Source of the DNA: a virus | Direction: 5' to 3' (one strand) | IMG/VR virus record: IMGVR_UViG_3300046167_000135 | Location: 1-35,307 of that record | DNA: 35,307 nt | Shown: positions 29,530 to 35,307 of the stretch, piece after piece | Numbering within the stretch: position 1 is the first letter of the stretch | Layout of the letters: each line of letters begins with the position of its first letter | Translations under genes and position numbers: made by a program | Notes under the pieces: model-generated | Database searches by the model: none | What the model was told of the DNA's origin: nothing | What the model saw: the letters and a program-made list of their open reading frames with translations, nothing else

Positions 29530-30843
29530 ATGAGTTTTTCATCAGCGGGAAGTCCGAATGCTCTAACAATGGGTCCAATGCCGGGAGGCTCGCCCTCTGG
29601 CCCCGGCAAGGGGGCTGGCGGTGGCGGGGGAATACCAGCTGCTCCGGGTCAAGGGATAACCGCCCAGCATCTTCCTGCGCCCGCTGTGAAAGGCCCTCCG
29701 CCCCGTACTTACGCGCCACTCCCTCAGCCGGGCGGTTTTAACGTCAATCGTGCAGCGGCAAGCGGTTTGCAGCAAGCCATGCAGGGTACTCAGCAGGCAA
29801 TGGGGTATCAGCCAATGGCAGTTAGGCCCACTGATTACAGAGCGGCTCAGGCAGGAAGCCAAGGTTACGATGCGAGTCAAGTTAGCGCGGGGCAAATTGC
29901 TAGCACTGACCTTAGCGCGTACACTAACCCATATGAAAGCCAAGTCGTTCAGCAGTCATTAGGCGACCTTGAGCGCAGCCGTTTGATGCAGCAAAACCAG
30001 CTTGGCGCACAGGCGTCAGCTGCTGGAGCTTTCGGCGGATCACGCCAAGGAATTGCTGAGGCAGAAACCAACCGTGCATTTGCGGAACAAGCGGCTCGTA
30101 CAGCATCAGGCTTGCGCCAATCTGGATACCAACAGGCGCAGCAGCTTGCAGGGCAAGATATTGCAACGCAGATGCAAGCAGGATTAGCCAACCAAGCCGC
30201 TCTCAACCAAGCTGGTCAGTTTGGTGCATCGGCAGCAAATCAAGCTGCATTGCAGAACCAAGCGGCCTTAAATCAGCAGCGTCAGTTTGGTGCTACGCAG
30301 GGCATGACGGCTCAGCAGCTAAACCAAGGCGCGGGCTTGCAGGGCGCTCAGTTCCGTTTAGGGGCTGCGAGCCAGATGGGCAATTTGGGTCAGCAAGCGT
30401 TTAACACATCGCAGGCTATTCAGCAGCAGCAGATGCAGCAAGGCTTAATGCAGCAAGGTTTGATGCAGCAACTCATTGATGCGGCTCGCGGGCAGTATGC
30501 AGGCGCAATTGGCGCACCGCAGCAATCACTTGGATTACCACTTGCCGCGCTGGGTGCAGCGCCAGCTCCTCAGAGTACAACTGAAACTATGAAGCCCGGC
30601 TTGCTTCAATACTTACAGGTTGGCGCAAGCCTTTGCTGGGTTGCCCGTGAAGTTTACGGCGAAGACGATCCAAAGTGGTTGCAATTCCGCGAGTGGGTTA
30701 TTGGTTACTCACCAAACTGGTTTTACAAAGCGTACAGCAAATATGGCGAAAGTGTGGCGAAAGTTGTGGCAAAAGTTCCAGCTCTTAAACTTGTCATCCG
30801 CCCGTTTATGGACGCTAAGCGCAAGGCAATGGGGTATAAGTAA
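29530..30843 (+). CDS. Gln/Ala-rich ejection protein with CFI-box-like C-terminus
   Basis: A 437-residue protein. A Pro/Gly-rich start (about 1-90) is followed by a long Ala/Gln-rich helical region (about 130-320) with repeats such as NQAALNQAGQFG and QQGLMQQGLMQQL. The C-terminal domain (about 363-437) begins CWVAREVYGEDDPKW and continues FREWV, PNWFYKAYSKYGE and IRPFM, which match the CFI-box layout more fully than the preceding protein. Long amphipathic Ala/Gln helices are common in phage proteins that form the ejection tube. The stop overlaps the next start (TAATG). Confidence 0.7.
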   Translation: MSFSSAGSPNALTMGPMPGGSPSGPGKGAGGGGGIPAAPGQGITAQHLPAPAVKGPPPRTYAPLPQPGGFNVNRAAASGLQQAMQGTQQAMGYQPMAVRPTDYRAAQAGSQGYDASQVSAGQIASTDLSAYTNPYESQVVQQSLGDLERSRLMQQNQLGAQASAAGAFGGSRQGIAEAETNRAFAEQAARTASGLRQSGYQQAQQLAGQDIATQMQAGLANQAALNQAGQFGASAANQAALQNQAALNQQRQFGATQGMTAQQLNQGAGLQGAQFRLGAASQMGNLGQQAFNTSQAIQQQQMQQGLMQQGLMQQLIDAARGQYAGAIGAPQQSLGLPLAALGAAPAPQSTTETMKPGLLQYLQVGASLCWVAREVYGEDDPKWLQFREWVIGYSPNWFYKAYSKYGESVAKVVAKVPALKLVIRPFMDAKRKAMGYK

Positions 30844-32423
30844 TGCCGCAAGGTTTTATCCCTCTTTCAACTCAAATGGACTTTCTCTGGAATGAAGTGC
30901 AGGGGAAGGAAAAGTCTGGCTTCGGCAAGTTTCTTACGGCAAACGCTTCAACGCCAGAAGACTATGCAACGCTGTGGGATAAATACTATGAGCGCTCTGG
31001 CGGCGCTGATGATGAAAAGGCTCGGGGTTACGCCAACAGCGTTTTCGCGGCAATGCACGATGGTACATCCAGCCCCGGTGTGATCTCTCCAAACGCAAAG
31101 TTTGCTTACGGCTACCTCACGCAAAAGGGTCTCACTCCGCAGCAGGCCGCTGGCGTCACTGGTCGATTGATGGCTGAGAGCTATCAAGACATGAACCCAG
31201 ACGCTCGCAACACTATGGCAGGCGGTCAAGGCACATATGGCATTGCGCAATGGCGCGGTAGCCGGATGGAAGATTTGGCCGATTTTGCAGGCGTTGACAT
31301 GGCTGACATTACATCACTTCCAGCAACCACTGCCAGTGGCGGTTTACTTACAAGCAATCAAGGGGGTCAAGACATGGCCATTTCTAATAAGCCTCCATAT
31401 ATGGTGGGCGGCGAGGAAACTTACAACGCACCCAATATGCAGCAGCAAGGCGGGATGCGCGGGCTTCTGTCAACTCTGAAAGATAAGGCGACTGCCGTTA
31501 ATCCGCAAACCGGGTTGACGGGTCTTCAGACTTTTGCAGCTTCGCTTGACCCTCTTATCTTGCCAGAACTGCGTGGCGGTGGTGAGGCTATTCGGAAGCA
31601 GGGTGCACAACGGGTTGCTTCTGGGAACAAGAATAGAACCATTGAGATGCTGCGGGCCAGAGGTCGTGATGACTTGGCTGACATGCTTGAGCGCGGAATG
31701 ATCTCTCCAACCGATGCGGCCAGTCAGTTGCTTGCGGCTAAGCCAAGGCCCATAGTCGTGGGCGACAAGCTACTTGACCCGAATACATTTGAAGTTCTTT
31801 ATGGAACCCCAGCGCCAGAGGGTGGAGACTTTAAGGACGCATCTGCGTTTCGCAAGGAGTTTACAAGCCTCCCTAGAATTAAAAACTTTGCTGGCGTTAC
31901 TGAGGCGTATTCTCGAATTGTGGCGTCGGCGCAAGACCCTTCCGCCGCTGGTGACTTGGCTTTAATCTTTAACTACATGAAGGTTCTTGACCCCGGCTCT
32001 ACTGTTCGTGAGGGTGAGTTTGCTACAGCACAGAACGCTGGTGGCGTAGATGCTAGAGTTCGCAGTCTTTTCAACAGTGTTGTTGATGGTACAAGGCTTA
32101 CAGCCACGCAACGCGCGGACTTCTTAGACCGATCAAATAGACTTTATAAATCTCAAGAGAGCTTAGTTCTTCCGCTTTACAAATATTATGGGAATATCGC
32201 CACTTCCAGAGGCTTTGATCCAGAGAGGGTTCTTCCAAAATTTGGGTACACTGGCGATATGCCCCAAGTCGCTCCAGAGTTCAGCCCAATGCCAGCTCCA
32301 CCAGTCCCAGAAGGTGCAACGGCCAATGGGCAGCCTCTTACTCAAGACGCTTGGCAAGCTATTTGGAACTCTCGCACAGCAGAAGAAAAGAAAAGGTTTA
32401 TGGAAACAGGAGCGTTTGAATAA
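30843..32423 (+). CDS. Ejection protein with permuted tail-lysozyme domain
   Basis: A 526-residue protein. Residues about 8-70 (QMDFLWNEVQGKE; STPEDYATLWDKYYERSGG) match what is normally the second half of the phage-tail lysozyme domain. Residues about 85-150 (LTPQQAAGVTGRLMAES with candidate E112; GTYGIAQWRGSRMEDLADFAG) match the first half, so the halves are in swapped order. The domain would locally open the host wall during DNA entry. The C-terminal half (about 290-465) contains DLALIFNYMKVLDPGSTVREGEFATAQN, a signature of internal/ejection proteins of many podovirus-like phages. The next gene overlaps by TAATG. Confidence 0.78.
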   Translation: MPQGFIPLSTQMDFLWNEVQGKEKSGFGKFLTANASTPEDYATLWDKYYERSGGADDEKARGYANSVFAAMHDGTSSPGVISPNAKFAYGYLTQKGLTPQQAAGVTGRLMAESYQDMNPDARNTMAGGQGTYGIAQWRGSRMEDLADFAGVDMADITSLPATTASGGLLTSNQGGQDMAISNKPPYMVGGEETYNAPNMQQQGGMRGLLSTLKDKATAVNPQTGLTGLQTFAASLDPLILPELRGGGEAIRKQGAQRVASGNKNRTIEMLRARGRDDLADMLERGMISPTDAASQLLAAKPRPIVVGDKLLDPNTFEVLYGTPAPEGGDFKDASAFRKEFTSLPRIKNFAGVTEAYSRIVASAQDPSAAGDLALIFNYMKVLDPGSTVREGEFATAQNAGGVDARVRSLFNSVVDGTRLTATQRADFLDRSNRLYKSQESLVLPLYKYYGNIATSRGFDPERVLPKFGYTGDMPQVAPEFSPMPAPPVPEGATANGQPLTQDAWQAIWNSRTAEEKKRFMETGAFE

Positions 32424-34348: not shown

Positions 34349-35307
34349 ATGGAACTTAAACCAAAATCACGCAGCGAAATTGAAAGCATTGTCCAAGACG
34401 CAATATCGGATGCGGTGGACTTTGTTGAGGGCGAGATCAGCGATGATCGGATCAAAGCCCAACGCTACTACGATGGCGAGGTTGACCTTGGCTACGAGGA
34501 TGGCCGCAGCAAGGTTGTAGCCACAAAGGTACGGGATACTGTACGTTCTGTGAAGCCAAGCCTGATGCGCATATTCCTCAGCACAGCCAAGCCCGTTGAG
34601 TTTGTGCCGCGCGGTGCAGAAGACGTGGCAATGGCCGAGCAGGCCACTGAGTTTATGCACCATGAGTTTACTCGGTTAAACGGCTACCGCGTGATGAATG
34701 ACGCCTTCCAAGATGCGCTGGTTAAAAAGCAAGGCATCGTGAAGGCATACTGGATGACATATCCAGAGGCCGAGATTTACACGTTTACCGACCTATCTGA
34801 CGATGAATACACATATCTCATTGAAGACGATAGCGTGACTGTGCTTGAGCATACTGCCGAAATGACCATTGAGATTGACCCAATGGGCATGGAAGTTGAG
34901 TTGCCGATCCACAGCGTTAAGCTCAGCCGCCAGAAAGAACGTGGCGAGCTGTGCATCGAGAGCGTCCCGCCGGAAGAGTTCTTTATCAACCGTGACGCTC
35001 GCAGCCTTGCCGACGCTTATATAGTTGCTCACCGCACAGATATGCGCGCTGGCGATTTGATTGCGATGGGCTATGACCCAGACGTGGTGCTTAATCTGGA
35101 CAGCTTTGAAAGCGGCTCAGACATGACCGAGGCCGAGATGTATGAGCGGCGCGGGTATGACATGGATACGTCAGATGAGGACGTGCAAGACCCATCCATG
35201 CGCAATGTTGCCGTGACTGAAGCCTATATGCGCATTGACGTTGACGGCACTGGCGTACCTATCCTGCACAAAATCACATGCGGTGGCACGGCATACGAAA
35301 TGCTGGA
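34349..35307 (+). CDS. Portal protein, N-terminal part (cut by window end)
   Basis: Start ATG 34349, with AGGA upstream; 319 complete codons and two bases before the window ends. It has the N-terminal helix (SRSEIESIVQDAISDAVDFVEGE), RYYDGEVDLG, then RDTVRSVKPSLMRIFLSTAKPVEFVPRG and DALVKKQGIVKAYW, a sequence pattern of P22-like portals. Later ESVPPEEFFINRDARSLADAYIVAHR is the clip/stem-side motif common to the family. Its continuation is the frame at 1-1122. Confidence 0.92.
   Translation, partial: MELKPKSRSEIESIVQDAISDAVDFVEGEISDDRIKAQRYYDGEVDLGYEDGRSKVVATKVRDTVRSVKPSLMRIFLSTAKPVEFVPRGAEDVAMAEQATEFMHHEFTRLNGYRVMNDAFQDALVKKQGIVKAYWMTYPEAEIYTFTDLSDDEYTYLIEDDSVTVLEHTAEMTIEIDPMGMEVELPIHSVKLSRQKERGELCIESVPPEEFFINRDARSLADAYIVAHRTDMRAGDLIAMGYDPDVVLNLDSFESGSDMTEAEMYERRGYDMDTSDEDVQDPSMRNVAVTEAYMRIDVDGTGVPILHKITCGGTAYEML

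Follow-up and report, generated by a model that had tools for sequence, protein, structure and literature searches.

The 35,307-nucleotide virus DNA analysed here (positions 1 to 35,307 of IMG/VR record IMGVR_UViG_3300046167_000135, hereafter the window) encodes a 526-aa protein that starts with the two halves of a phage-tail lysozyme domain in the reverse of their usual order. Do these halves make up one domain, and what would such an enzyme do at the front of this protein? In our view this is very probably an ejection (pilot) protein similar to P22 gp20, with a complete, circularly permuted PF18013 lysozyme as its exchangeable N-terminal cartridge. This reading is based on the permuted order, the full coverage of the family profile, conservation across phages and the exchange of cartridges near an internal ATG.

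Order of the lysozyme halves

Pfam found PF18013 (Phage_lysozyme2) in two stretches of the protein, with a score of 79.1 bits against a curated cut-off of 28.2. When residues 1-79 and 80-176 were scanned apart, the separate halves scored 32.7 and 56.4 bits. Together they cover the 140-position profile almost wholly, and once, in exchanged order (Table 1); the window protein does not show the canonical order, in which the catalytic half precedes the YER half. An earlier note on this DNA had claimed that the YER half comes first and the ES/GIAQW half second, and the profile matches agree. The limits it had given (residues 8-54 and 100-145, with a linker of about 30 residues) have to be replaced by 8-71 and 84-150, with a linker of about 12.

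Table 1. Features of the ejection gene and its neighbours (window coordinates; residues are those of the 526-aa protein)
Feature	Position	Strand	Evidence
Upstream gene, probable gp7-like ejection protein, 437 aa	29530..30843	+	Weak phrog_4287 match; fused arrangement in L205
gp20-like ejection protein CDS with N-terminal permuted lysozyme	30843..32423	+	ORF; PF18013 in two stretches; phrog_13634 body
YER half (canonical second half), residues 8-71	30864..31055	+	PF18013 profile 75-140, E 1e-7
Linker joining the old termini, residues 72-83	31056..31091	+	Gap between profile matches; weak stretch of model
Catalytic half (canonical first half), residues 84-150	31092..31292	+	PF18013 profile 2-66, E 4.9e-15
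Putative catalytic Glu112	31176-31178	+	Aligns with phi29 gp13 residue 45
GIAQW motif	31239-31253	+	Within catalytic half
Shine-Dalgarno-like AAGGGGG before in-frame ATG	31360..31366	+	Suggestive only
Ejection-protein body from internal M178; conserved core residues 327-464	31374..32423	+	phrog_13634; Kapi1 alignment
Downstream gene, probable gp16-like ejection protein, 632 aa	32423..34321	+	phrog_5880; Kapi1-like position

The conserved ES, GxAQW and YER residues are all present in the window domain, and E112, S113, Q136 and R141 are invariant in an alignment of 31 diverse permuted sequences. One permuted lineage (L219-L240; L numbers denote the sequences compared) has GIAQF in place of GIAQW. 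The window E112 aligns with residue 45 of phi29 gp13, which we take to be its catalytic Glu. The window domain thus has in common with PF18013 and the N-terminal domain of phi29 gp13 (3csr, 3csq) both halves and the ES, GxAQW and YER residues, but the halves are exchanged, the domain now begins and ends in the loop between the lobes, and about 12 residues connect the old termini. By sequence, it is a permuted variant of PF18013 and not a canonical member, and circular permutation of the lysozyme domain is well supported. The suggestion that permutation might place the active site nearer the N-terminus fails, because permutation moves the catalytic Glu to residue 112, compared with about 30 residues from the domain start in the canonical order.

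Predicted fold

The AF2 model built from an alignment of the 31 diverse permuted sequences (A5) has a mean pLDDT of 88.2 and a pTM of 0.86 over 172 residues, and is weak only near the linker and towards the C-terminal end. Such a pTM over this length would be hard to reach unless the halves held a fixed mutual placement. The two halves are predicted to form one compact domain, in line with the single-domain folding that the earlier note had proposed. In this reading of one complete permuted lysozyme, the chain would begin in the loop between the lobes, pass through the YER lobe, cross the linker of about 12 residues that joins the old termini, run through the catalytic lobe (Glu112, GIAQW) and exit to the body. 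An AF2 run from close relatives only was poor (pLDDT 69.6, with the catalytic loop below 50), and a fold search with that model gave chance helical matches only.

Structural matches to known lysozymes fell in the catalytic half only. A sequential structure search aligned model residues 78-152 to residues 11-83 of phi29 gp13 (3csq_D, Z 2.7), and a BFVD phage tail lysozyme matched over 78 columns at 2.8 A and 44% identity. Histone dimers ranked above phi29 gp13 in searches with the good model (Foldseek/VIA); we took these to be chance helical matches (Z at most 3.6). Against the phi29 gp13 sequence, a profile of the permuted family gave two matches whose order was reversed: profile positions 74-151 fell on gp13 residues 8-83, and positions 27-70 on residues 114-156, this second match being weak alone.

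Distribution and origin of the permuted order

Aligned catalytic halves, and after them aligned sets of diverse permuted sequences, served as queries for distant relatives; the fetched sequences were classed for order by two half-profiles. Among 126 distinct sequences, 65 are permuted, all from environmental phages, 56 are canonical and 5 could not be classed. The half-profiles found no canonical second half after residue 150, the position beyond which the earlier note would have looked for one, in any permuted protein. Close relatives with the permuted order (66-96% identity) occur in about 40 contigs, and distant permuted domains (31-50% identical) in many other phage contigs and in several protein contexts. 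Among the distant domains, some stand at the N-terminus of ejection-type proteins (L168-L173, L207, L219-L240) and others at that of virion proteins of the phrog_11190 family, 890-990 aa long (L167, L253); a third set lies inside chains of 1,100-1,450 aa (L166, L205, L206, L211, L235). Given this recurrence in close and distant contigs, the permuted order is neither chance nor an assembly artefact; the window domain is no one-off and belongs to a widespread family.

Canonical order was found in all the related PHROGs (9570, 8949 and 19487), and in Bacillus phage Moonbeam, where the catalytic half (52817-53068) is directly followed by the YER half (53066-53230). Synechococcus phage Sf-FP1 looked permuted by tblastn and is actually canonical; searches of named phages found the permuted order in no isolate. 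Of two scans of bacterial genomes, the first yielded no confirmed relative and the second six, all canonical by half-profiles. In a tree of catalytic halves the permuted sequences cluster, with 2 changes of order versus 23 in shuffles. A single origin of the permuted form is neither shown nor rejected (AU p 0.317; few columns, unrooted tree). Judged solely by its broader spread, the canonical order would be the ancestral one.

The probable ejection-protein body and its neighbours

The ORF starts with an ATG that shares one base with the upstream stop (TAATG), and its place is within a co-directional virion gene cluster, ahead of the portal gene. The portal gene itself is broken across the window ends, with 34349-35307 matching phrog_1216 profile positions 7-325 and 1-1122 matching positions 349-678. 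Since it is split in this way, the 35.3-kb record looks complete, circularly closed or permuted; it is classed as linear despite the split.

The body of the protein matches phrog_13634 (E 2.7e-40) and has the core NYMKxLDPxSVVREGE in common with the DNA transfer protein of coliphage Kapi1 (tblastn E 3e-5, and alignment). That protein, Kapi1_057, is a PF16928 Inj_translocase of the P22 injectosome. A Pfam scan found PF16928 in Kapi1_057 and no match to it in the window protein, which we therefore name gp20-like and not gp20. The 437-aa upstream gene weakly matches the DNA ejection protein family phrog_4287 (E 0.0024), and the 632-aa downstream gene matches phrog_5880, of unknown function (E 7.8e-18); the order of the 437-, 526- and 632-aa genes resembles that in Kapi1. 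The core and the gene order support the earlier suggestion of an ejection protein. Since the part beyond the lysozyme is similar to P22 gp20 injectosome proteins, we read the whole as gp20-like, an ejection protein that bears a muralytic cartridge at its N-terminus.

Compared with P22 gp20 (PF16928; Kapi1_057), the window protein has a similar C-terminal core and a similar gene order, with neighbours that are probably ejection-type genes, but it lacks PF16928, where a wall-cutting cartridge stands instead at the N-terminus. T7 gp16 is likewise an ejection protein with an N-terminal peptidoglycan-cutting domain; we read the window body as unrelated to it, and the enzyme as different in being a permuted PF18013. 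The peptidoglycan-cutting domain of the T7 gp16 type moves between ejection proteins in T7 relatives (PMC8954989).

Probable fusions occur among the relatives. In L205 (440-4378), a 1,313-aa chain joins a strong phrog_4287/6121 ejection stretch to the permuted lysozyme, apparently by fusion of two genes that adjoin in the window. Pseudanabaena phage Pam1 gp16 (L297, 2324-5077), annotated as a mediator of RNA polymerase II, starts with a relative of the window ejection body and seems to run into a relative of the downstream gene; it is probably a fused ejection protein. The 9m7n Gp16, considered as a possible solved homologue, is not Pam1 gp16. In many relatives (for example, L009) similarity to the window protein ends near residue 298 (31735) and a different C-terminal part follows, and this region may be a second exchange boundary inside the body.

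The cartridge slot and its boundary

Relatives of the body carry different domains at their N-termini: Glucosaminidase PF01832 (L044, L045), SLT PF01464 (L047, L058), Hydrolase_2 PF07486 (L056) and an unidentified domain (L046), while L042 and L043 have no cartridge at all. Over 351 aa, L044, L045, L046 and L047 have bodies with 97-99% identity. Their cartridges, in contrast, show no relationship or very little similarity, save in the L044/L045 pair. The DNA match begins exactly at the internal ATG in L045/L047 (99.1% over 2,987 nt, from 2860 in both) and in L046/L047 (92.4% over 2,988 nt, from 3211/2860). The L045/L046 match (92.9% over 4,064 nt) sets in 13 bases ahead of the ATG (2860/3211), at 2847/3198 in a common AAAGGAAAAGAC stretch. 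Upstream, the L045/L047 match stops at 2390/2453, before the cartridge start. As read from these alignments, unrelated wall-cutting enzymes can replace one another in the N-terminal slot, and its boundary falls on an in-frame ATG or no more than about 13 bases from one. That ejection proteins trade wall-cutting domains is already known from T7 relatives (PMC8954989); the sharp boundary is a new detail.

Alternative readings of the domain

An exchanged order could readily arise by tandem duplication and later loss, and both PF18013 halves are recognizable separately. The window protein might then contain two truncated tandem domains that do not pack together, the catalytic half being inactive or working alone. 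We regard this as highly improbable: no protein with 1.5 or 2 domain copies was present among the 126 distinct sequences classed by half-profiles, many lineages have kept both halves, their key residues and a short linker between them, and the modelled pTM implies a fixed mutual placement. The halves could instead pair between neighbouring subunits of an oligomeric ejection protein, as a domain swap that the short linker could favour in proteins that make rings and tunnels (PMC8954989); the confident monomer model speaks against this, and we judge it very unlikely.

It is also unlikely that the domain is without enzyme activity and serves only in peptidoglycan binding or in a structural role in the virion. 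The lineage with phenylalanine for tryptophan in GIAQW would fit a loss of activity, but Glu112, Ser113 and Gln136 are invariant in the 31 diverse members, and recognized peptidoglycan-cutting domains fill the slot in relatives.

A possible internal start

The window M178 codon (31374) is the equivalent of the boundary ATG of the relatives and is preceded by the AAGGGGG sequence. Most permuted relatives have a comparable signal at the cartridge boundary, a Shine-Dalgarno (SD)-like sequence with an in-frame ATG. Averaged over 34 permuted proteins, the anti-SD duplex energy is -9.5 kcal/mol at the boundary ATG (residues 150-185), compared with -1.5 kcal/mol for 539 other internal ATGs and -4.7 kcal/mol for the genes' own starts, where the best ATG was picked per protein and the sequences are related, although from several lineages. 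A synonymous-codon null gave per-sequence p values of 0.03-0.55, mostly 0.09-0.16, which means that the Gly-rich residues themselves favour SD-like sequence. The cartridge-less genes of L042 and L043 begin at the boundary site, in favour of an internal start; these starts are without a strong SD.

Endolysin genes with an internal translation start yield two products (PMC9430671, PMC4777826). As in the window gene, an in-frame ATG with a sequence resembling a ribosome-binding site follows the enzymatic domain, but those are lysis enzymes for which two products were shown, whereas here the signal alone is seen, in a virion protein. On the sequence evidence we lean slightly towards use of the internal start at M178, and an enzyme-less short product from it is possible. 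A further, tentative proposal is that such ejection genes are two-start genes, in which an exchangeable in-frame cartridge gives enzyme-bearing and enzyme-less products and the permutation determines how enzyme and conduit are linked. Under this two-start proposal, the cartridge would be bounded by the end of the upstream gene and the body's own start, so that unrelated enzymes could exchange cleanly.

Implications

From the families involved and a review (PMC8954989), we infer that the protein would most likely be packed in the head and ejected after adsorption into the periplasm. The lysozyme would open the peptidoglycan locally, and the ejection proteins would then build the DNA conduit. 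The permutation would mainly alter the tether point between enzyme and body and not the chemistry, as the body would leave from the inter-lobe loop rather than from the end of the YER lobe.

The literature searched (titles and abstracts) gave nothing relevant on a permuted phage lysozyme. Neither the domain family nor the ejection protein nor the exchange of cartridges is new in kind; the novelty lies in the permuted form. Apparently a phage lysozyme domain has been circularly permuted in nature, and the result is present in many environmental phages and in several protein contexts, where current family models read it only as two out-of-order fragments. The permuted and canonical sets provide matched natural material for asking why the permutation persists. 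Unrelated enzymes exchanged at an internal start codon, or close to it, point to a way for ejection proteins to gain new wall-cutting domains, and raise the hypothesis of two products from one gene, which is directly testable.
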